The notes under the pieces are model-generated. The model searched no databases and was not told the origin of the DNA. It saw only the letters and a program-made list of their open reading frames with translations. Of a DNA stretch of 64,000 bases, positions 998-56,269 are shown one piece after another (position 1 is the stretch's first letter; each line of letters opens with the position of its first letter). Source of the stretch: Amycolatopsis regifaucium (GTDB lineage: Bacteria > Actinomycetota > Actinomycetes > Mycobacteriales > Pseudonocardiaceae); NCBI RefSeq assembly GCF_001613935.1, contig NZ_LQCI01000003.1:540500-604499 (forward strand), in the 5' to 3' direction. The position numbers and the translations under genes are program-made.

Positions 998-2200
998 ATG
1001 GAATTGGTCGGCGTCGAGAAGGTCCGGGCGGCCCGCAAGCTGCTGGAAGGCGTGACTCGCGTGACTCCCATGGAGCACGCCAGAGATCTTCGGAAGCTCC
1101 ATGGCGGCCCGGTCCACCTCAAATGCGAGAACCTCCAGCGGACGGGTTCGTTCAAAATCCGCGGCGCGTACACCCGAATCCACGGCCTGTCCGCCGGGGA
1201 ACGCGACCGTGGGGTGGTCGCGGCGAGCGCGGGCAATCACGCGCAAGGGGTAGCGCTCGCGTCGGCGCTGCTCGGGACGAAGGCCACGGTCTTCATGCCG
1301 CAACGCGCGCCGCTGCCGAAACTCGCCGCCACTCGCGGCTACGGCGCCGACGTCCATCTGCACGGTGAGGTGCTGGAGGAGACCCTTGCCGAGGCGATCG
1401 CGTTCGGCGAGCGCACCGGGGCGGTGTTCATCCACCCGTTCGACCACGCGGACATCATCGCCGGGCAGGGCACTGTCGGATTGGAAATCCTCGACCAGGT
1501 CCCGGGCGTCCGGACGGTGCTGGTCTCGACCGGAGGCGGCGGTCTGGTCGGCGGGGTCGCTTCGGCGGTGAAGGCGCTGCGCCCGGAAGTGCGGATCGTC
1601 GGCGTCCAGGCCGAGGAAGCCGCCGCGTATCCGCCGTCGCTGGCCGCGGGCGAGCCGGTCCGGCTGCGTGAGATGCACACCATGGCCGACGGGATCGCCG
1701 TCGGCCGACCCGGGCCGATCAGCTACGCGCATGTCGCCGCGTTGGTCGACGACGTCGTGACAGTGACCGAGGAGTCGCTTTCGCGGGCGGTACTGCTTTG
1801 CCTGGAAAGGCGGAAACTCGTCGTCGAACCGGCGGGCGCGGCCGGGGTGGCGGCACTGATGCAGCATCCGGGCGCCTTCGAGCCGCCGATCGTGGCGATC
1901 CTTTCGGGCGGCAACGTCGACCCGGTGCTCCTGCTCCAGATCGTGCGGCACGGGATGACCGCGGGCGGCCGCTATCTGAAGCTGCGGCTGCTGGTACCGG
2001 ACAGGCCGGGCTCGCTGGCTTCGGTGCTTTCCCGTGTCAGCGAACTGGGCGCGAACGTGCTGGACGTCGAGCACTCGCGGGTCTCGGGGAGTCTCGCGCT
2101 CGGTGAGGTCGAGATCTCCCTCGCGCTGGAGACTCGCGGCCCTTCGCATTGCGCCGAGGTGGCGGAGGCGCTGCAGAAGGCTGGTTGGACGGTGGTTTGA
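998..2200 (+). CDS. ilvA: Threonine ammonia-lyase (threonine dehydratase) with C-terminal ACT domain
   Basis: A 400-residue PLP enzyme converting threonine to 2-oxobutyrate and ammonia, the entry step to isoleucine. The PLP lysine is K53 in GSFKIRGAY; the phosphate loop is STGGGGLVGG; SAGNHAQGVA is the substrate loop. Residues from about 325 (LKLRLLVPDRPGSLASVL) to the end form one ACT regulatory domain, as in short TdcB/IlvA-type enzymes, rather than the double domain of E. coli IlvA. The frame stays open far upstream (from 587), but homology begins at the ATG chosen here (MELVGVEKV). No strong ribosome binding site is seen. The stop directly abuts a family A palindrome. Confidence 0.93.
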   Translation: MELVGVEKVRAARKLLEGVTRVTPMEHARDLRKLHGGPVHLKCENLQRTGSFKIRGAYTRIHGLSAGERDRGVVAASAGNHAQGVALASALLGTKATVFMPQRAPLPKLAATRGYGADVHLHGEVLEETLAEAIAFGERTGAVFIHPFDHADIIAGQGTVGLEILDQVPGVRTVLVSTGGGGLVGGVASAVKALRPEVRIVGVQAEEAAAYPPSLAAGEPVRLREMHTMADGIAVGRPGPISYAHVAALVDDVVTVTEESLSRAVLLCLERRKLVVEPAGAAGVAALMQHPGAFEPPIVAILSGGNVDPVLLLQIVRHGMTAGGRYLKLRLLVPDRPGSLASVLSRVSELGANVLDVEHSRVSGSLALGEVEISLALETRGPSHCAEVAEALQKAGWTVV

Positions 2201-2257
2201 GCGCAATGAAGGGGCCTTTCATCGCAAATTTCGCAATGAAAGGGCCCTTCATTGCGC
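2201..2257. terminator. 57-nt palindrome between convergent genes (family A, copy 1)
   Basis: An almost perfect inverted repeat centred on AAATTT; arms begin GCGCAATGAAGGGGCC. It starts one base after the ilvA stop and lies between ilvA (+) and the immunity-like gene (-). Because each arm begins with ATGAAGGG..., it reads as MKGPFIA in more than one frame and on both strands, an artefact and not a protein. Copies 2-4 lie at 15301, 30256 and 56214. Confidence 0.75.
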
Positions 2258-2292
2258 GCCAGGGGGCACGTTGCGCGCGGGGGAGGGTGGTC

Positions 2293-3150
2293 CTAAGTGG
2301 ACGGTTGGCCGGTGATGGCGGCGACCGCGAGTTCGCGTTCGGGCTCGCCGACCTCCGGCAGGGTGAACCGCAGCGCCCGGATGTGGGTGAGCAGTTCGGG
2401 ATCGGGTGCCACGTCGTGCTCGCGCAGATAGTAGGCGACCGCGCCCGGCCAGTACCACCGGCCGTCCGTGCGGAAGTTCAACGGTACCAACGGTTCCCGA
2501 TCGGGTTCGAAGGCGTCGGCGTCGTAGGTCCGTGACGCCAGCACGACCGGAGCGCCGTCAAGGTACTCCAGCACGCGGTCCCGCTCGGCGGGAGACAACG
2601 GCTCGCGGTCCACCACCGGACGGCCCGACTCGTCGAGCCCGTCGTAGACACGCGGAGACTTCAAGGCCTCCGGTGTCTCCGCGGGCGGGGTCGCGACCAA
2701 GGGCCCGGCGGGTTCCAGGCCGGCTCGTTGCCTGAACCAGGGCGGGATGTACTGCTCGGCGCGCGGGAAGAACCGAAGCTCGTCTTGGAAGCCGATCGGC
2801 GGTGGCGCCTGCCGCCACGGCGGCTCGACGTCCAGCAGGAAATCCGTGCCGAGCACCGTCGCCGAGCCATAGACCAGGATCGTGCTCAGCCAGGTCCCTC
2901 TGCCGGGCTGGTACATCCCCGCCCGAAGATTTCCGAGCAACTGCACGGCTTCCGGGCTCGGCTGCACCGGGCGGGGCAGCCCGTCCTGACCGGTGACGAG
3001 CAGGTCGACCTCGACATGCCTGCCCGCCGCCCGGTACTCGACGCGCATCTGCTGCCAGCCCGGAGGCAGCGGGGTGGCGAGGGCATGGCCGATCTGCCAG
3101 ACGAGCTGCTGTTGCTGCTGCTGGGTCAACGGTACTTGTGGTCGGCTCAT
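2293..3150 (-). CDS. YezG-like immunity candidate fused to a second module
   Basis: 285 residues. Residues about 10-145 resemble the two genes before it and the YezG/DUF600 immunity family: helical N-terminus, the RAGMYQPGRGTWLS segment, an acidic strand (DFLLDVEPPW) and F/Y-F-P-R-x-x-x-x-I-P-x-W. Residues about 165-285 form a separate module with VPLNFRTDGRWYWPGAVAYYLREH, which I cannot name with confidence. The start was chosen at MSRPQVPLTQ because a GGAGGGGAC ribosome binding site precedes it; a longer frame upstream lacks support. Last of three consecutive immunity-like genes after the toxin, 20 nt after the previous stop. Likely a cytoplasmic nuclease inhibitor; this is inference from position and similarity. 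Confidence 0.6.
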   Translation of the reverse strand: MSRPQVPLTQQQQQQLVWQIGHALATPLPPGWQQMRVEYRAAGRHVEVDLLVTGQDGLPRPVQPSPEAVQLLGNLRAGMYQPGRGTWLSTILVYGSATVLGTDFLLDVEPPWRQAPPPIGFQDELRFFPRAEQYIPPWFRQRAGLEPAGPLVATPPAETPEALKSPRVYDGLDESGRPVVDREPLSPAERDRVLEYLDGAPVVLASRTYDADAFEPDREPLVPLNFRTDGRWYWPGAVAYYLREHDVAPDPELLTHIRALRFTLPEVGEPERELAVAAITGQPST

Positions 3151-3170
3151 GTCCCCTCCCGCACCGATGA

Positions 3171-3614
3171 TCAGTTCGCCGTGCCGGAGGCGCGACGCTG
3201 AAGCCATTCCGCGCGTTCGCCGGTTCGCGGGTAGCGCTCCAGTTCCTGGGCGAAGAACTCCGCCGGCGGGACGTGATCCCAAGCGGGTTCGTTGTCCCAG
3301 TCGTATTCCACGGAGTACCCGCCTGGATGGACCATGTGATAGCGAACCGAGGTCCAAGCGCCCTCGCCCGGTTGAGCCATGCTGTCCCGCAGGTCCACGA
3401 AGAAGTCCGCTACCCCCGACGGCGGCGTCCACGGTGTGCTCGTGCCCATCACGGTCAGCACGTGGGCCGAGATCTCGACGTAGTCCCCCACCGAACGGAA
3501 GGTGAGGAACAACTGCTCGTAATCCGACGGTACGGAGTGCACCATCCAGGTGGTGAACTCCTTGAACAGCTGATTGGCCTGTGCCGCGCTCGTGGGCACA
3601 ACGGGCATGGGCAT
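3171..3614 (-). CDS. YezG-like immunity candidate (second of three)
   Basis: 147 residues, cytoplasmic, no signal peptide. It shares the pattern of the flanking paralogues: M-A-Q-P-G-E-G-A-W-T-S, then a short acidic strand YDWDNEPAWD, then ELERYPRTGERAEWLQ. The start ATG overlaps the previous stop as TGATG, with AGGAG eight bases upstream, so translation is coupled; an earlier in-frame start exists but is not needed. The YezG (DUF600) family is known as the partner of YeeF-type polymorphic nuclease toxins in Bacillus. Here it sits directly behind a gene whose C-terminus looks like that nuclease class. Inhibition of the nuclease by direct binding is inferred. Confidence 0.65.
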   Translation of the reverse strand: MPMPVVPTSAAQANQLFKEFTTWMVHSVPSDYEQLFLTFRSVGDYVEISAHVLTVMGTSTPWTPPSGVADFFVDLRDSMAQPGEGAWTSVRYHMVHPGGYSVEYDWDNEPAWDHVPPAEFFAQELERYPRTGERAEWLQRRASGTAN

Positions 3615-4087
3615 CAGTCGCGCTCCTTGTCGTTCGCCGCCGCGAGTTTCTCGCTGAGCCAAGCCGGGATGTGTTCAGGATCCCTGGGGAACTTCTTCAG
3701 ATCTTCGACGTAGTGTTCCGGCTCCATGGGCGGCGTGAGCACCGGTTCGTAGTCGTAGTTGTAGTCGTAGAAGATGGCTCCCGGCGGATTCATCGAGATC
3801 CGCGCGGAGAACCAGGCGCCGCGGCCGGGCCGGTACAACAGCGTGCGCAGTTTGGCCAGTATCACGTTCAGCTCGGTCGGTGGCGCGATCTCCGGCCTGG
3901 AACCGTCGTCCATGATCACGGTGAGGCCGAGGTCCTGTGCCGGCACCGTCATCGCGCTGACCAGGTCGATGCGCCGCCAGCCTTCCACGGGGACGAGGTC
4001 CAGCAGCGCGGTGCCGAGCTGCTGGATCAGGTCCTCGTGGGTCTCACCCCCGGAAGTCATCGGGCCAGAGTGGGTCGTTGTGGTCAT
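3614..4087 (-). CDS. YezG-like immunity candidate (first of three, overlaps toxin gene)
   Basis: 157 residues. The C-terminal half has the clearest family signature: YRPGRGAWFSARI, FYDYNYDYEPV, then YVEDLKKFPRDPEHIPAWL. The gene starts inside the last 44 bases of the toxin gene, as expected for an immunity gene that must be translated with its toxin; a second in-frame ATG nine codons later also lies in the overlap. It ends in a TGATG junction with the next paralogue. By position this is the most probable cognate immunity protein of the 1642-residue toxin, with the next two either reinforcing protection or covering related toxins. Family assignment is from motif memory, not a search. Confidence 0.7.
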   Translation of the reverse strand: MTTTTHSGPMTSGGETHEDLIQQLGTALLDLVPVEGWRRIDLVSAMTVPAQDLGLTVIMDDGSRPEIAPPTELNVILAKLRTLLYRPGRGAWFSARISMNPPGAIFYDYNYDYEPVLTPPMEPEHYVEDLKKFPRDPEHIPAWLSEKLAAANDKERD

Positions 4088-7000
4088 TGGGGAAGCTCCT
4101 GACGATTACCGAGATCCGGCCTTCGGCGTCCGGACCGTAGGCCCGGTACTGGCGGGTGTGCGCGTCGTCGACGCCGGGATCCCGGAGTTCGAAAATATCC
4201 TCGTTCTCCAACCTACTAGCGAGGCCGGTCTCGTCCCGATTCCGCTCCATCTGGTACCAGCTGTCGTCGGGATCGTAGGTCTCCGCGAGTTCCTTGGCGC
4301 CCGCGTTGCTGTTGTCCACCCGCCCTTGCGTGCCTTGGTTGCCCGCTTCGCCGGAGCCACCGACGGACGTGCCGCGGTGGTGACCACCGTCGTCGATGTT
4401 CTTCCCGGAGGCGTCCTTGCCACCGTTCGCGCCGACTCCGGCCTGCGCCGGACCGTCGCGCCGGACGTTGCTGGCGCCACCGGGATCCGGCGGGGCCGAG
4501 GTCACCACCACGTTGCCACGCTCGTCGGTCCGGTGGATCTCGCCGGGCGAACGGCGGTTCAGCGGGTTGCCGTCCTTGTCGTGCATTTCCAGGCCGTGAT
4601 CGACCCGGATCACCGCGTTGGGCGGGGGGTTGTTCAGATCCGGGTTGAACGGCTGCCCGGTGTGCAGGTGGGTGATCTTGCCGTCCGGCCCGGTCTGGAA
4701 CGAGCCGTAGGGCAGGCCGTCCTTGTCCACCACGTGGATACGGGTATTGGGTGGCAGGTTGTCGCGGCCCGCGATCGGATCCTTGTGCGCGATCTTGTCG
4801 CTGATCGCCTTGCGCTCGGCGTCACTGAGTGCGTCCGGGTCGCCGTCGACGAACCCCTGCGGATCGTCGCTTCGCGGCGGCGGCTGATGCGAGTAGGTGA
4901 GCTCGCGATCGGGAGCGGGCCAGGAATCCTGGACCTTGCTGGCGTTCTTGGTGCCGTAATGGCCGTCCTGGGTGATCTCCGCGCCCTGGGCGGCCGCCAC
5001 CTCGGAGTTCGTCCGGCCACGCTGGCCACTGGTGGTGTCGACGTGGGTGATACGCCCCGTGTCGTCGGTGTAGAAGTCGCCTCGCGGATGCCCGTACTCG
5101 TCGGTCGGCCGGTGCACGCTGTTCGGCTTGAGCGTGGGGTTCCCGTCCGCGTCGAGCTTGGGGCTGCCGTCTTCGTTGGCATGGAGGCGGTTGAAGGGCT
5201 GGTCCTGCTTCACCGCGTTCGGGTGCGGGACCGGGTCACCCTGCGGCGTCGGCGGGTTGAACTCCTGGCCATGTTCCGGTCGCCCGTCCGGCCCGACGCG
5301 GTACTCCTCGTGGAGCGGCCCTCGGTCGATCCGGTAATTGCTGTCCGGCAACGGTTCCCGGAGTTCGGGGTTGGGACGGTCCGGTGTGCTTTCCGGGGTT
5401 TCGACCCACCTGACCTTGCGCTCGCCGTCGGTCTGGAAGCTGCCGCGGGGATTCCCGTCGGCGTCCGTGACGTGATAGCGGGTGTTCGGTTCGAGATCGG
5501 TGCGACGGCTGAACGCGTCGTTCGCACCGGGTGCCCGTGGGTCGTCGGCCTCGATCCGCACCTCGTCGCGGGGCTTCGGCGGCGACTCGATGTGGTCGAC
5601 CCTGGTGACGTCCTGGCGGCCGTGCTGGGTCTTCACGTCGGTGTGCGTCACCGTCCGGACTTCGCCGTTCGCGTCGGTCGGGAAGGTGTCATGCCGATGG
5701 CCGACCTGCACGCGATAGTTGGAGTTCGGCGCCGGGCGCATGATCTCCGGGTTGCCCGGGGCGTGCAGCTTGTTCGGCGCGACGGCGTCGACGTGCGTCA
5801 CGTTGCGGTTCGCGTCGGTGTAGACCCGGCTGCGCACGTTGCCGTCCGCGTCGGTGATGTCGTACCGCGTACTCGGCTCGAGCTTGCGCGGAGGCGTCGT
5901 CGGATCGAAGAACGACTGGTCGTCGCCCAGCCGGACAGGACGGGCGGGCGGCGTGAAATCGGGCTCCTCCCAGCGTCCGTCGAGCTGATGTTGAGGGGTG
6001 AGGTTGTCGCCCTCACCGCGGTCGCGGGCGCTGTCGGCGTCCACGTCCTGCTTGTCCGCGTGCGAGGTGTCCGGCGTGAAGCCGTCGTCGCTCGCCCGGC
6101 GAGCGGTGCCGTCGGGGCTGTGGATGTCCCACTCGCCGTTCGGCGGGATCCGTGGACGGGTGCGGCCGTCGGGGCCGATCTCGTAGTCGGACGAGAAGAC
6201 GCGCCCGTTCGCGTCGGTCCACGCCGGCTTGCTCGGCGCCATCACCTCGGTGTCGAGTTCCCGCGACAGACGGCGCGCGAAGTCGTTCGAGCCGGCGTCA
6301 CAGCCGATCAGCCGGATCGGGCGGCCGTCGTAATCGGTGTTACGGCGCAGGATGTCCGCGAATTCCTCGGGGGTGTAGGTGCGGTTGCCGATGCGGGCGT
6401 GCCCGTCCGGGGTGACGTGCACGTCGACGGTGTAGCGGCCGTCCGGGTCCGGCTGGACGCGGTGCGGCAAATCGCCCATGTCCGCGTCGCCGCGGTGATA
6501 CGAGCTACCCGCCGGGGTGCCTTCGGAATGCCGCTGGTTGACCTCGTCCGGCGTCAGCGGGCGGTCCGGTTCGCCGTCGGGGCCGCGGTCGTGCGGTGAG
6601 CCGTCGGGGTGACCGTTCGGGTCCTGGCGCGGGCCGTGCCCAGCGGGGCCGTGACCGTCCGGCGAATGCGGCGGCCCGGAGTGACCACCGGGGCCGCGCC
6701 CGCCCGGTCCGGTGTTGCCGGGACCGGTGCCGCCGGGCCGGTTACCGGGGCCGTGCGTGCCCGGCGTGCCGGTGTGCGGCTGGGCGCCGGGGCCGAACTC
6801 GTTGCCGCGGGCCACCGGTTGCGGCTGATGCGGCTGGTTCGGCCGCCCGCCGGGACCGGTCTGCCCGGGACCGCGGCTGGGACCGGTGTGGGTGTCGGGA
6901 GTGCGGGGGGCGTGCGTGTCCGGGGTGCGCGGCGAACCGGGCGTGCCCGTCCAGCCACCGCCCGGCGGCCTGCCGCCGGGCGAACCCGGGGTGCCGCCGG

Positions 7001-8972
7001 GAGTACCGCCGCCGGGCGCGCCCTGTGGCGGCATGCCGCCCGCCATCGGCTGACCCTGCGGCGGGATACCGGGCGAGCCGTCACCACCGGTGCCGCCGCG
7101 CTGCGCGGGAACGTGCGACGGACCGGCGTCGCCGAGTCGCGGCGCGGTGGGCGCGGTACCGCTGGTCGTGGTGCCGCTGTCGGTCGGCCGGGTGGGGCTG
7201 CCGCCGTCGTTTCCGCCGTGCTGGCCGGCTGCCGGGTCGGAACGCGGAGTGGGCGAACCGCCACCGTCACCGCCGTGGGTCCGGGGCGAACCACCGCCGT
7301 CGCCGGTGTGGCCGGGCGAACCGCCGGTGTCCGCGCGCGTGGGACTCGGTGCACCGCCGTCCGGGGTGTGGCTCGGGGAGCCGCCGGTGTCGGTGCGGGT
7401 CTGCGGTGCGGACGCGGGTGAGCCGCCGTCCGGGCCGTGGGGCGGTGAACCGCCGGTATCCGCGCGGGTGTGCGGTGCCGGGGTGGGCGAACCGCCGTCG
7501 GGGGTGTGGCTCGGTGAACCATCGGCGTCGGCGCGTGTCTGCGGTGCGGGACCGCTGTCCGCGCGGGCCGTGCTCGGCGAGCCGCCGTCGGGCGCGCGGT
7601 TCGGCGTACCGGAATCGCCGGAGTGCGTGGGCGAACCGCCGTCGGAGCGGGTGTGCGGAGTACTGGGCGAACCCCCGTCGCCGGTGTGGCCGGGAGTGCC
7701 ACCGCCGGAGCGCGGTGACGAGCCGGCGCCGTCCGGCGCCCTGCCGAGGTTGCCGTCCGATGTGGACGGTCCGTCGCCATCGCCCGCGCGGCTGGTGGAT
7801 CCACCGTCCGAACGGGGCGGGGAGCCACCGTCTCGTGTGGACGGTGAGCCGCCACCGTCGCCGCCGCGGGTGCCGGTGCTCGACGGGGAGTCGCCGCTGG
7901 AACCGTTCGATCCGGTCGAGCCGGAATCGCCGGAGCGGCCGGAGTCGCCCGAACCACCCGAGTCGCCGTCGGAACCGTTCGAGCCGCGGGAACCGTCGCC
8001 GGCACCGTTCGAGCCATCACCGGACCCGCTGCCGGAACCGTCACCGTCCGGACCGTCGCCGGAGCCCGTGCCGCCGCCATCGGGCCCGCCGGATCCGCCG
8101 CCGCGGCCGCCGCGCTGGATGAAGCCGCCCGCCTTGATGTTCTTGGGGTTGAGCGCGTCGAGCCCGGTGACCTTGCCCGCGATCTTGCCGAAGATCTTGA
8201 TGATCTTCTCGAAGACGTCGACCAGCTTGCCGAGCAGCGGGGAAACGCGCCGCATCGCGTCGCACAGTTCCTTGAGCTTGTCGGCGATCTTCGCGGCCCA
8301 CTTCGCGATCGCGGTGACGGCCTGCGCGACCACGACGGGGGTACCGAAGCCGAGGGAGAACACCGTCTCCATGACCCACGCGATGAGCTTGCCGACCGCG
8401 TCCGCGATCAGCTGGCGGATGAATTCGCGGACGAACGCGACGATCTCGCCGAAGATCATCACGACGGTGCTGATCCCGCCCGCGACGGTCGCCGCCGCGC
8501 CGATCGCCTCCGCCTGCTCCGCGGCCTGCTTGCGGTACTGGTCGCCCGCCTCGCCCGTCCAGCCCGCGGTGCCGTTCTTGACCGTGTTCGACAACTCGAC
8601 CTGGGTGTCTTCCAATTTCTTGGCGACGTTGCCCCAGGTTTCGGAGTACGACTGGATCACCGGCGGATCGCCTGCCACCGCGTCCAGCATGTCCTTCAGC
8701 GGCTGCATGTGTTCCATCAGGAACGACGCCACCGACGACATCAGGTAGCCGAACGGGTCGATCGCCGCGCTGGCGATCTCACCGGCGAGGCTCAGCACGC
8801 CGAGCCCGCCGCCCACCCAGTCGCCGTTCGAAATGCCGTTGAAGGCGTCCATGGCCGACTCGGCGACGCCGATCCCCGCCGCGTAGCCGTATTCGCTGTT
8901 CCCCGCCGTCAACGGGCCAGGGCCGTCTTCGTCTGTCGGCGCCTTCGCGACGAGCGGATTTCCCTCGGGCAT
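4044..8972 (-). CDS. Giant type VII-secreted polymorphic toxin with C-terminal nuclease domain
   Basis: 1642 residues. Residues 1-285 form an alpha-helical WXG100-like secretion domain (GWTGEAGDQY with W138) followed by hydrophobic helices. Residues about 285-835 are a low-complexity Gly/Ser/Pro/Thr/Asp linker with recurring GGSP/DGGSP units. Residues about 845-960 (VDVHVTPDGHARIG with H852, RPIRLIGCDAG with C891) resemble the caspase-like His/Cys pre-toxin modules of actinobacterial toxins. Four modules of roughly 125 residues follow (near 1040, 1174, 1298, 1421), each with a TRYxVTDADGNxRGSFxTD..GKxTHV hairpin. Residues about 1500-1642 carry DDGGHHRGTSVGG (H1531/H1532) and GNQGTQG, matching DNA/RNA non-specific endonucleases of the NS_2/YeeF type, although the usual DGGHL is DGGHH. 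Start overlaps the EspC-like stop as TGATG. Export through an ESX machine encoded elsewhere is inferred. Confidence 0.8.
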   Translation of the reverse strand: MPEGNPLVAKAPTDEDGPGPLTAGNSEYGYAAGIGVAESAMDAFNGISNGDWVGGGLGVLSLAGEIASAAIDPFGYLMSSVASFLMEHMQPLKDMLDAVAGDPPVIQSYSETWGNVAKKLEDTQVELSNTVKNGTAGWTGEAGDQYRKQAAEQAEAIGAAATVAGGISTVVMIFGEIVAFVREFIRQLIADAVGKLIAWVMETVFSLGFGTPVVVAQAVTAIAKWAAKIADKLKELCDAMRRVSPLLGKLVDVFEKIIKIFGKIAGKVTGLDALNPKNIKAGGFIQRGGRGGGSGGPDGGGTGSGDGPDGDGSGSGSGDGSNGAGDGSRGSNGSDGDSGGSGDSGRSGDSGSTGSNGSSGDSPSSTGTRGGDGGGSPSTRDGGSPPRSDGGSTSRAGDGDGPSTSDGNLGRAPDGAGSSPRSGGGTPGHTGDGGSPSTPHTRSDGGSPTHSGDSGTPNRAPDGGSPSTARADSGPAPQTRADADGSPSHTPDGGSPTPAPHTRADTGGSPPHGPDGGSPASAPQTRTDTGGSPSHTPDGGAPSPTRADTGGSPGHTGDGGGSPRTHGGDGGGSPTPRSDPAAGQHGGNDGGSPTRPTDSGTTTSGTAPTAPRLGDAGPSHVPAQRGGTGGDGSPGIPPQGQPMAGGMPPQGAPGGGTPGGTPGSPGGRPPGGGWTGTPGSPRTPDTHAPRTPDTHTGPSRGPGQTGPGGRPNQPHQPQPVARGNEFGPGAQPHTGTPGTHGPGNRPGGTGPGNTGPGGRGPGGHSGPPHSPDGHGPAGHGPRQDPNGHPDGSPHDRGPDGEPDRPLTPDEVNQRHSEGTPAGSSYHRGDADMGDLPHRVQPDPDGRYTVDVHVTPDGHARIGNRTYTPEEFADILRRNTDYDGRPIRLIGCDAGSNDFARRLSRELDTEVMAPSKPAWTDANGRVFSSDYEIGPDGRTRPRIPPNGEWDIHSPDGTARRASDDGFTPDTSHADKQDVDADSARDRGEGDNLTPQHQLDGRWEEPDFTPPARPVRLGDDQSFFDPTTPPRKLEPSTRYDITDADGNVRSRVYTDANRNVTHVDAVAPNKLHAPGNPEIMRPAPNSNYRVQVGHRHDTFPTDANGEVRTVTHTDVKTQHGRQDVTRVDHIESPPKPRDEVRIEADDPRAPGANDAFSRRTDLEPNTRYHVTDADGNPRGSFQTDGERKVRWVETPESTPDRPNPELREPLPDSNYRIDRGPLHEEYRVGPDGRPEHGQEFNPPTPQGDPVPHPNAVKQDQPFNRLHANEDGSPKLDADGNPTLKPNSVHRPTDEYGHPRGDFYTDDTGRITHVDTTSGQRGRTNSEVAAAQGAEITQDGHYGTKNASKVQDSWPAPDRELTYSHQPPPRSDDPQGFVDGDPDALSDAERKAISDKIAHKDPIAGRDNLPPNTRIHVVDKDGLPYGSFQTGPDGKITHLHTGQPFNPDLNNPPPNAVIRVDHGLEMHDKDGNPLNRRSPGEIHRTDERGNVVVTSAPPDPGGASNVRRDGPAQAGVGANGGKDASGKNIDDGGHHRGTSVGGSGEAGNQGTQGRVDNSNAGAKELAETYDPDDSWYQMERNRDETGLASRLENEDIFELRDPGVDDAHTRQYRAYGPDAEGRISVIVRSFPNDHNDPLWPDDFRG

Positions 8973-9286
8973 CAGTCAGGCACCTGCACGTTCTTCAGCT
9001 CCGCGGCGAAGTTCTCGTCCTGCGCGTGGTAGGCGTTGGACGCGGACCGCACGTTGTTCGCCACCGCCGTCGCGGCTTCGACCGCCTTGTTCAGCGCGTT
9101 GATGCCGAATTCCTCGACCGGGTCGAGCATCATCCGGAACGGCTGGCAGATGATGCCGTACGCGTCGGTCGGCATGCTCACCTGTTGCGCGGCGTCGACC
9201 GCGGTACGCAGTCCGTCGGCGATGCCGTCGATCTGCTTCGCGTGCGCGTCGAGGTCGGAACCGAGCTCGTAACCCTTGCCTGCCAT
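8972..9286 (-). CDS. EspC-like type VII secretion target protein
   Basis: 104 residues, helical, no signal peptide. The pattern L-x-x-H-A-x-x-I-D, then TDAYGIICQPFRMMLDP, then a helix ending in Y-x-x-x-D/E (YHAQDENFAAEL) fits the actinobacterial type VII secretion target family related to EspC. Such proteins are usually encoded directly upstream of large WXG-type effectors and probably pair with their N-terminal domain during export. Here the stop overlaps the toxin start as TGATG, strongly coupling the two. The Y-x-x-x-D motif near the end matches the general ESX export signal. Role as co-secreted partner or chaperone is inferred from the family and the overlap. Confidence 0.75.
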   Translation of the reverse strand: MAGKGYELGSDLDAHAKQIDGIADGLRTAVDAAQQVSMPTDAYGIICQPFRMMLDPVEEFGINALNKAVEAATAVANNVRSASNAYHAQDENFAAELKNVQVPD

Positions 9287-9319
9287 GGTGTCTCCCCTCT
9301 ACCCGGCCGGATGGAACGT

Positions 9320-9862
9320 CTACGAAAGGATGCTGCCGCCGAAGTCGTCGTCATCGTCGTCCCGCGCGCGGCGGCGGCGCGGGATCGGCTTCGGCTGTGG
9401 CGGCGTGGACGAGGCGGGCGGCGGGGGCTCTTCCTCTTCGGGGCCGAAGCGGTGGTGCCGCTCGGGCTCCGGCGGAGCGGGATCCTCTTCCGGCGGCGCT
9501 TCGGGGAAGGTGCTCTGGGCTTCCGCGATCACGCGGCTCGCCGTCTCGTCGGTCGTACCGACCGTTTCGGCCATCGCCTGCTGCAGCAGTTCGGGGATCC
9601 GGGACTGCGCGAGCTGCACGAGCCGCATGACCTGCGACGAGACCTCGGCCATCCGCTTGCCGCTCGCCGCTTCGGAGATGACGAGATTGGTCAGCAGGCC
9701 CTTGGCGTCGACGGTCACTTCGACGGTGTTGTCCTTCGACCGCTCCGTCACGGTCTGTCCCTGCATCCGCGCCGCCATCGCCTGATAGCGCGCGGCGGTC
9801 TCCTGGATCTGCTTCGTCCAGTTGTCCACCATCTGTTCGCTGGCGTCGACGTTGTCCGGCAT
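9320..9862 (-). CDS. YbaB/EbfC-like protein heading the toxin operon
   Basis: 180 residues. Residues about 1-110 follow the YbaB/EbfC nucleoid-associated fold: helix (MVDNWTKQIQETAARYQAMAARM), beta-strands (NTVEVTVDAKGLLTNLVIS), helix (AEVSSQVMRLVQLAQSRI). The rest is a disordered, Pro/Glu-rich tail ending in a basic RRRRAR and an acidic DDDDDD run. In Actinobacteria such YbaB-like genes often lead cassettes of EspC-like protein, WXG toxin and immunity genes, as seen here, 33 nt upstream of the EspC-like gene. Whether it binds DNA, or has been recruited as a secretion accessory, is unknown. It is not the dnaX-recR-linked housekeeping ybaB. Upstream (9885-9930) lies the probable operon promoter. 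Confidence 0.75.
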   Translation of the reverse strand: MPDNVDASEQMVDNWTKQIQETAARYQAMAARMQGQTVTERSKDNTVEVTVDAKGLLTNLVISEAASGKRMAEVSSQVMRLVQLAQSRIPELLQQAMAETVGTTDETASRVIAEAQSTFPEAPPEEDPAPPEPERHHRFGPEEEEPPPPASSTPPQPKPIPRRRRARDDDDDDFGGSILS

Positions 9863-15300: not shown

Positions 15301-15353
15301 GCAATGAAGGGGCCTTTCATCGCAAATTTTGCGATGAAAGGCCCCTTCATTGC
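15301..15353. terminator. 53-nt perfect palindrome between convergent genes (family A, copy 2)
   Basis: Arms start GCAATGAAGGGGCC and meet at an A/T-rich centre (CGCAAATTTTGCG). It begins 5 nt after the Rv1083-like stop and ends 14 nt before the pnkp stop on the other strand. Bidirectional termination is inferred from the convergent setting. Confidence 0.75.
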
Positions 15354-30255: not shown

Positions 30256-30302
30256 ATGAAGGGGCCTTTCATCGCAAAATTTGCGATGAAAGGCCCCTTC
30301 AT
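30256..30302. terminator. 47-nt perfect palindrome between convergent genes (family A, copy 3)
   Basis: Arms ATGAAGGGGCCTTTCATCGC and complement around an AAAATT centre. It lies 9 nt after the phoH2 stop and 15 nt before the stop of the opposing phosphodiesterase gene. Confidence 0.75.
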
Positions 30303-56213: not shown

Positions 56214-56269
56214 GTGACATGAAAGGCCCCTTCATCGCAAAATTTGCAATGAAGGGCCTTTCATGTCAC
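56214..56269. terminator. 56-nt palindrome between convergent genes (family A, copy 4)
   Basis: Arms begin GTGACATGAAAGGCCCC around a CAAAATTTG centre with one mismatch. It lies 12 nt after the sbcC stop and 13 nt before the ogt stop. Confidence 0.75.

Follow-up and report, generated by a model that had tools for sequence, protein, structure and literature searches.

The closest described counterparts of the locus reported here are the nuclease toxin-immunity pairs EsaD/EsaG of Staphylococcus aureus and YeeF/YezG of Bacillus subtilis, which belong to the T7SSb class of type VII secretion systems. In the sections of the published accounts drawn on here, EsaD uses H528 as general base and N551 as metal ligand, the stretch leading into its nuclease belongs to an N-terminal fragment through which EsaD docks on EsaG, and the inhibition of EsaD by EsaG is conserved in YeeF-YezG (PMC9616950). 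The YezG/DUF600 immunity gene lies directly downstream of the toxin gene and small partner genes lie upstream (PMC9616950, PMC10653861), and EsaD has trunk-bound partners including the EspG-like EsaE (PMC10653861). As far as their tables go, Zhang et al. (2012; PMC3482391) list for Tox-NucA toxins the type VII secretion system (T7SS) with WXG domains, a caspase as processing protease and Imm36/DUF600, with actinobacteria among the holders; the tables give associations and not one named protein with all parts. Related designs are reported for Mycobacterium abscessus prophage WXG toxins, with a small partner, Endo-NS2 and TNT tips and tip-matched immunity genes (PMC8092301), and for Tde5 of Pseudomonas aeruginosa, a toxin of the His-Me DNase type that is countered by a pair of immunity genes, Tdi5a and Tdi5b (PMC13392607).

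We analysed a 64,000-nt stretch of the Amycolatopsis regifaucium genome (assembly GCF_001613935.1, contig NZ_LQCI01000003.1, positions 540,500 to 604,499, forward strand), called the window below. Six packed minus-strand genes (9862-2293) in this 8.27-Mb genome make up a chromosomal polymorphic-toxin locus of the actinobacterial type VII (ESX) kind; the host is presumably a soil actinomycete. The toxin (4044-8972, 1642 aa, minus strand like all genes and toxin parts below) has a constant trunk, and exchanged C-terminal tips are found on this trunk among its relatives. It is followed by three genes for YezG-like proteins, here called y1 (3614-4087, 157 aa), y2 (3171-3614, 147 aa from an ATG overlapping the y1 stop, or 163 aa if translation began at a TTG further upstream) and i3 (2293-3150, 285 aa from its ATG; a 379-aa frame of i3 begins at a GTG within y2). 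Our main result is that y1 and y2 go with the tip, and that i3 goes with the trunk. The overall design is a known one, and the division of labour among the three YezG-like genes seems to be new.

The locus has in common with EsaD/EsaG and YeeF/YezG the nuclease family (GGH plus metal-ligand Asn), the YezG/DUF600-type gene directly downstream of the toxin and the small partner genes upstream. It differs from them in its actinobacterial ESX context, the EspC/YbaB partners, a His/Cys module and lead-in repeats, and in having two tip-linked YezG paralogues plus a third, trunk-linked YezG-like protein. An EsaE-like gene was not recognised at the locus, where no search was aimed at one. The part list is that of the Tox-NucA T7SS toxins, provided that Tox-NucA is equated with the EsaD-type tip as we do here; the fixed y1/y2 pair, the trunk-linked YezG-like protein and the lead-in repeats set the locus apart from that account in its cited parts (PMC3482391). 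The M. abscessus toxins are described as prophage-borne, ∼50 kDa in size and accompanied by one immunity gene (PMC8092301), whereas the present locus occupies a chromosomal site between two apparently metabolic genes. Tde5 is a toxin of the type VI secretion system, and Tdi5a and Tdi5b are reported to be structurally distinct (PMC13392607), whereas y1 and y2 are paralogues. Neither a fixed YezG pair nor a trunk-linked YezG-like protein was described among the matches listed from the open-licence literature (titles and abstract openings). Because the locus shows which genes accompany an exchanged tip and which a constant trunk, "three immunity genes" can be recast as roles open to experiment. 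Should protection require both y1 and y2, the locus would be a type VII case of immunity provided by two paralogous proteins.

To compare tips and accompanying genes, 47 loci holding the His/Cys module were chosen by hand from the match lists; they are not independent, and another 48 module copies among the matches listed were left out of the set. The TNT, tip, YezG, i3, module, EspC and YbaB models were built from the 47 loci themselves, and a tip was scored as EsaD-type if matched by the tip profile built here. Among the 32 loci with an EsaD-type tip, y1 was present in 32, y2 in 31 and i3 in 27 (three as TNT fusions). The 15 loci with other tips contained y1 in 0/15, y2 in 0/15 and i3 in 12/15. 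Fisher tests gave 1.3e-12 for y1 and 0.70 for i3, values that are not true probabilities because the loci share ancestry. Seven loci (L003-L006, L077, L120, L121) had entered the set via tip or i3; without them, y1 accompanied 25/25 EsaD-type tips and 0/15 others, and i3 was found in 20/25 and 12/15. A point against the link of i3 to the trunk is that i3 is not adjacent in five EsaD-tip loci and three others. In six of these eight cases a strong i3 match was located elsewhere in the genome (G032, G184, G156, G088, G140, G123), and the other two genomes (G029, G021) had weaker matches elsewhere only. The location of i3 elsewhere in the genome would fit action in trans.

Co-variation was estimated in 21 loci with all seven parts (L152 excluded); identities vary slightly with the aligner and the cuts used. 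The correlation of pairwise identities was 0.88 for tip and y1 and 0.89 for tip and y2. It reached 0.94 for the toxin N-domain and the i3 C-domain and 0.95 for the module and the i3 C-domain, and was 0.16 for tip and N-domain. With the N-domain held constant, the tip still tracked y1 and y2 (0/1000 permutations as high), and in the same 21 loci it was unlinked to the i3 C-domain (299/1000) and to the module (492/1000). The division is not entirely strict, as the i3 N-domain slightly tracks the tip (partial correlation 0.16, 15/1000 permutations). The possibility that i3 is an immunity protein to the window tip was rejected by the locus counts and by the co-variation of i3 with the trunk.

The same division is seen at the nucleotide level. 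The window DNA was compared in 150-bp steps with seven same-genus loci carrying other blocks (L060 to L066). Identity was 91-94% in the N-domain, 77-82% in the linker, 92-93% in the module and 89-91% in the i3 C-domain, whereas an exchange block at ∼3150-6000 (no strand assigned), comprising repeats, tip, y1 and y2, showed no or patchy similarity. The genes on both sides of the locus also match in L060-L066, so these loci occupy the same chromosomal site. In L064 and L066 identity falls to ∼70% already in the i3 N-domain, which places the block edge inside i3. Two other loci, L004 and L005, keep the window's block at 83-90%. The identity pattern fits block exchange by homologous recombination between constant flanks.

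The tip (residues ∼1444-1642, 4047-4643) carries DDGGHH at residues 1527-1532. An earlier note on this DNA had proposed an NS_2/YeeF-type nuclease, and the proposal held. A profile of 20 tips from related loci matched the EsaD nuclease chain of the S. aureus EsaD-EsaG complex 8guo (E 3.5e-8) and EsaD in 8gun (E 1e-5), and PF13930 (Endonuclea_NS_2) touched 11 of the 20 tips at E up to 1 (best 2.6e-11). In the 20-tip alignment GGH, W, E and R are invariant and D, Q, N, P and F nearly so; the metal-ligand Asn occurs in at least 90% of the tips and GGH in 20/20, and the window tip has both. EsaD H528 and N551 correspond to H1531 and N1556 when the tip-profile and the 20-tip alignments are read together. 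What speaks against the assignment is that the window tip by itself matched no Pfam family and that the whole toxin gave no NCBIfam nuclease match. The comparison of the tip with NS_2 models suggested by the earlier note was thus positive for EsaD with the relatives' profile and negative for the window tip alone in Pfam. The family assignments of tip and y1 rest on profiles of relatives because the window proteins alone match none. As judged by these alignments, the tip is an EsaD/YeeF-type nuclease.

The suggestion that DGGHH marks a special, variant nuclease was rejected. The residue after the GGH His is L in seven tips, H in five, T in four, F in three and I in one; because the catalytic His is kept in 20/20 while the next residue varies, HH is a subfamily mark only. 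The tip had no match in phages at 0.01. On a viral contig (L156), a frame at 1959-4438 combines a VG15 match (8.2e-6) with an NS_2 nuclease tip (5.8e-11), directly 5' of a YezG-like gene (4.5e-4, just under cut-off), that is, the same toxin-immunity pair in a phage setting.

A YezG-family gene behind the toxin (3614-4087) had also been predicted. This gene, y1, is supported by relatives' profiles and family matches; the earlier note missed that the next two genes downstream are YezG-like too. Single-protein matches to YezG (PF04634, DUF600, Imm36) were under cut-off (y1 0.16, y2 0.065). PF04634 matched 9 of 24 YezG-like members at E up to 0.1 (best 7.1e-4), and a profile of the 24 domains, which includes the i3 N-domain with a row starting five residues inside the gene, matched BH3703 at 0.002. 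Two results tell against the assignment: y1 had no Pfam match at 0.1, and the 24-domain profile matched EsaG (8guo) at 0.025 over a short stretch. By profile comparison, y1 and y2 appear to belong with the YezG/EsaG immunity proteins.

We consider it likely that the whole scheme applies, namely an ESX polymorphic-toxin locus with a y1/y2-guarded, exchanged nuclease tip and a trunk-linked i3. The YbaB-like and EspC-like partners and the WXG-like N-domain would probably pass the toxin to an ESX machine. Before export, y1 would silence the tip by inserting into the nuclease sheet, by analogy with EsaG, and y2, a fixed second paralogue, probably binds the tip too. Judging by its motif and position, the Asp-His...Cys module is most likely a protease that cuts the toxin it belongs to and so frees the tip. 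According to the alignments, the tip would then cleave DNA, H1531 acting as the general base and N1556 binding the metal, and the toxin would kill competitors. Relatives would swap repeats, tip, y1 and y2 together, the likeliest route being homologous recombination that uses the constant module on one side and the constant i3 gene on the other. The i3 protein is most likely an export or holding partner of the trunk and not an immunity protein to the tip.

The Asp-His...Cys module (residues 804-961, 6090-6563) contains D850, H852 and C891, the last being one of only two Cys in the toxin. The three residues were kept in 50/50 aligned rows (49 copies plus the window after E-value and coverage filters; at least two rows repeat a gene, as L030 is the window gene and L043 and L073 are from the same genome), and Asp, His and Cys were also found in 27/27 rows reaching down to 30% identity. 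The module was detected in at least 98 of 200 family genomes (E 0.01), including all 11 same-genus genomes of that sample, and by profile in 24 of 394 class genomes, the host being counted in both cases. In clan CD peptidases the His precedes the Cys, and the module has an invariant His before an invariant Cys. Caspase-like domains at such a position are described as likely releasing peptidases (Zhang et al., 2012; PMC3482391). The module is probably a caspase-like releasing protease with a putative fold.

Several searches weigh against this assignment. The module profile had a best E of 0.75 among 7 matches listed in the Protein Data Bank (PDB), and the module did not match two CHAT proteins of the host genome. 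Ntox37 touched 9/27 module copies (best 0.0014) and Pribosyltran 5/27 (best 0.068), both at E up to 1. DUF4347 touched only 4/27 copies at E up to 1 (best 1.9e-4), and no Pfam family matched at cut-off. A DUF4347 search of 40 relatives gave no match, but its controls were also unmatched, hence it is uninformative. Given the weak or missing PDB, CHAT and Pfam matches despite the kept D/H/C, a caspase fold is probable yet unconfirmed. These failures would suit a structural or binding domain instead of a protease, and some caspase repeats in such toxins are reported to lack catalytic residues (PMC3482391). We regard this as rather unlikely, given that Asp, His and Cys are kept in every row of both alignments with His before Cys, and that the module's place upstream of the exchanged part is that reported for caspase-like releasing domains (PMC3482391).

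CHAT as a relative of the module was rejected, as neither of the two CHAT proteins compared gave a match. A remote copy of the module, with His and Cys present, was found in the same genome in a second, 1842-aa WXG100_2 protein (L168, 4205-9733), which adjoins EccC and subtilase genes (pairwise hhalign of the two modules, E 2.4e-10). The scan of viral contigs with the module gave no relative, and the comparison with plasmids gave one Streptomyces record. In genomes of one other genus (g100, family f32) the module lies in frames mostly of ∼300-400 residues, where it is perhaps a stand-alone protein.

The repeats (residues ∼1030-1443, 4644-5885) have the motif LePntrYeV...TDadGrvtHVdT. This 36-residue motif occurred 1-5 times in 32/32 EsaD-type toxins and gave one weak match (E 0.003) in the 15 toxins with other tips. 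A motif match also overlaps the tip start, as delimited here, in L060, L061, L063, L065 and L155. In the window toxin the last unit extends into the tip and resembles the three units before it (blastp 5e-12 to 5e-5). We read the repeats as probable copies of the nuclease lead-in, against which stands the non-significant match of the window toxin's final lead-in to the repeat model (E 0.12). By comparison with the EsaD lead-in, the repeats may dock YezG proteins; an alternative is that they are relics of earlier tip swaps. Docking could also be part of a different arrangement, in which y1 and y2, for instance as a heterodimer, form a split obligate immunity travelling together with the tip, extra docking sites for YezG-type proteins are offered by the repeats, and i3 is a common YezG-like guard on the trunk, where it retains the toxin or passes it on until the module frees the tip. 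We think this arrangement improbable as a whole.

The i3 protein has two domains, a YezG-like one at the N-terminus and another at the C-terminus. Almost all of it is homologous (39-43% identity in one comparison, ∼40-45% in another) to a stretch of long frames in the family, and this stretch is the N-terminal half of TNT-domain proteins. A C-terminal TNT domain was found in the long homologues L118 and L120 by Pfam and in L116, L117, L119, L121, L077, L157 and L159 by the custom model. The host genome itself encodes three TNT-domain proteins with i3-like YezG and C-domains before TNT (L157, L159, L158). Also in L158, a 366-aa frame holds an i3-like C-domain without the YezG part. A TNT domain is encoded within the second YezG gene in four loci (L064, L066, L074 and L078), and longer fusions occur in L077, L120 and L121. 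Whole i3 had no Pfam match at 0.1 and no TNT domain, whereas its homologues carry one. The scan of viral contigs found no relative with single i3 and one locus with the i3 alignment.

EsaD has known trunk-bound partners, among them the EspG-like EsaE (PMC10653861). By this analogy, the most likely role of i3 is that of a partner in the export or holding of the constant trunk, comparable to that of EsaE. Another candidate role, which we hold to be unlikely, is that of keeper or inhibitor of the Asp-His...Cys module. The co-variation of module and i3 C-domain (0.95) is consistent with a keeper, and Tox-Caspase is listed among the Imm36 associations, with actinobacteria (PMC3482391). Yet i3 co-varies equally with the N-domain (0.94), and elsewhere its full-length relatives occur as fusions with TNT domains. 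Because module and N-domain co-vary equally with i3, the data do not tell which trunk part i3 serves.

A quick tree of 108 YezG-like domains was used to compare the three positions. The position labels need 5 changes (minimum 4; shuffled mean 53.9), and y1 versus y2 needs 1 change over 63 rows; the four TNT-protein domains group by themselves. Support is uneven, with 39/105 inner branches open. Because so few changes are needed, y1, y2 and i3 appear to be mostly separate lineages and no recent array, although one change above the minimum means that the lineages are not fully clean, which counts against a complete separation. We consider it unlikely that y1, y2 and i3 form a small polyimmunity array of interchangeable YezG paralogues, in which each guards against some tip and y2 and i3 are orphans retained against foreign toxins. 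In favour of such an array, polyimmunity loci of the homogeneous Imm36 type and S. aureus esaG strings are published (PMC3482391, PMC9484751) and L152 has seven YezG matches in succession, some partial. Against it, the order y1-y2-i3 is constant wherever all three occur in the 47 loci, the positions form largely separate tree groups, the tip co-varies equally strongly with y1 and y2 and the trunk with i3, and y1 and y2 are absent where the EsaD-type tip is absent (0/15).

The remainder of the locus would fit export by a type VII system. The first gene (9320-9862, 180 aa) encodes a YbaB/EbfC-like upstream partner (PF02575, E 3.8e-8, over cut-off); a YbaB-like frame occurs in 34/47 module loci, and L003 and L006 are truncated by the contig end. 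The EspC-like small partner (8972-9286, 104 aa) matches PF10824 over cut-off (E 1.8e-15), in agreement with the earlier note, and its stop overlaps the toxin start by 1 nt. The junctions are, in order, a 33-nt gap, overlaps of 1, 44 and 1 nt, and a 20-nt gap. With 3/5 junctions overlapping and six genes in all, the tight minus-strand pack described behind the YbaB-like gene was recovered, as were the 1642-residue toxin, its His/Cys module, its repeats and the C-terminal DDGGHH. The constant WXG-like N-terminal domain comprises residues 1-280 (8133-8972), and the Gly/Pro/Ser linker, by composition, residues ∼281-803 (6564-8132); the linker is present as noted earlier, with a length of 523 and not 550 residues. 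WXG100 families stayed below cut-off for the N-domain (PF25547, E 0.0018; PF06013, E 0.0036; TIGR03930, E 1.3e-4), a point against its WXG-like assignment, and N-domain homologues were found in 180/200 family genomes (E 0.001). The proposed type VII setting is supported by the ESX export ATPases (EccC) of the same genome, with four EccC genes over the TIGR03924 cut-off; 0/14 control genomes exceeded it, though 9 match below cut-off. L076 has another YbaB-EspC-N-domain set (4919-7618) behind its first locus; the toxin frame of this second set contains a masked run.

Gene order is the same in related genomes, and a named-genome scan at the locus gave four Amycolatopsis records as relatives. The locus is more than a chance assembly because gene order recurs, the EspC and YbaB partners match Pfam and the tip profile matches a solved nuclease. 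From their translations only, we take the flanking gene at ∼1000-2200 to resemble a threonine dehydratase-type enzyme and that at 11318-10077 a hydroxyphenylpyruvate dioxygenase-type enzyme. A double palindrome of 47 bp, made up of 17-bp palindromes spaced 30 bp apart, occurs in the window at 2206-2252, 15304-15350 and 30256-30302, with a variant at 56219-56267, and one copy lies directly behind i3. The pattern was found at 89 places in the genome, versus 0 for the backwards-read pattern, and resembles either a terminator or a REP-type element dispersed in the genome.

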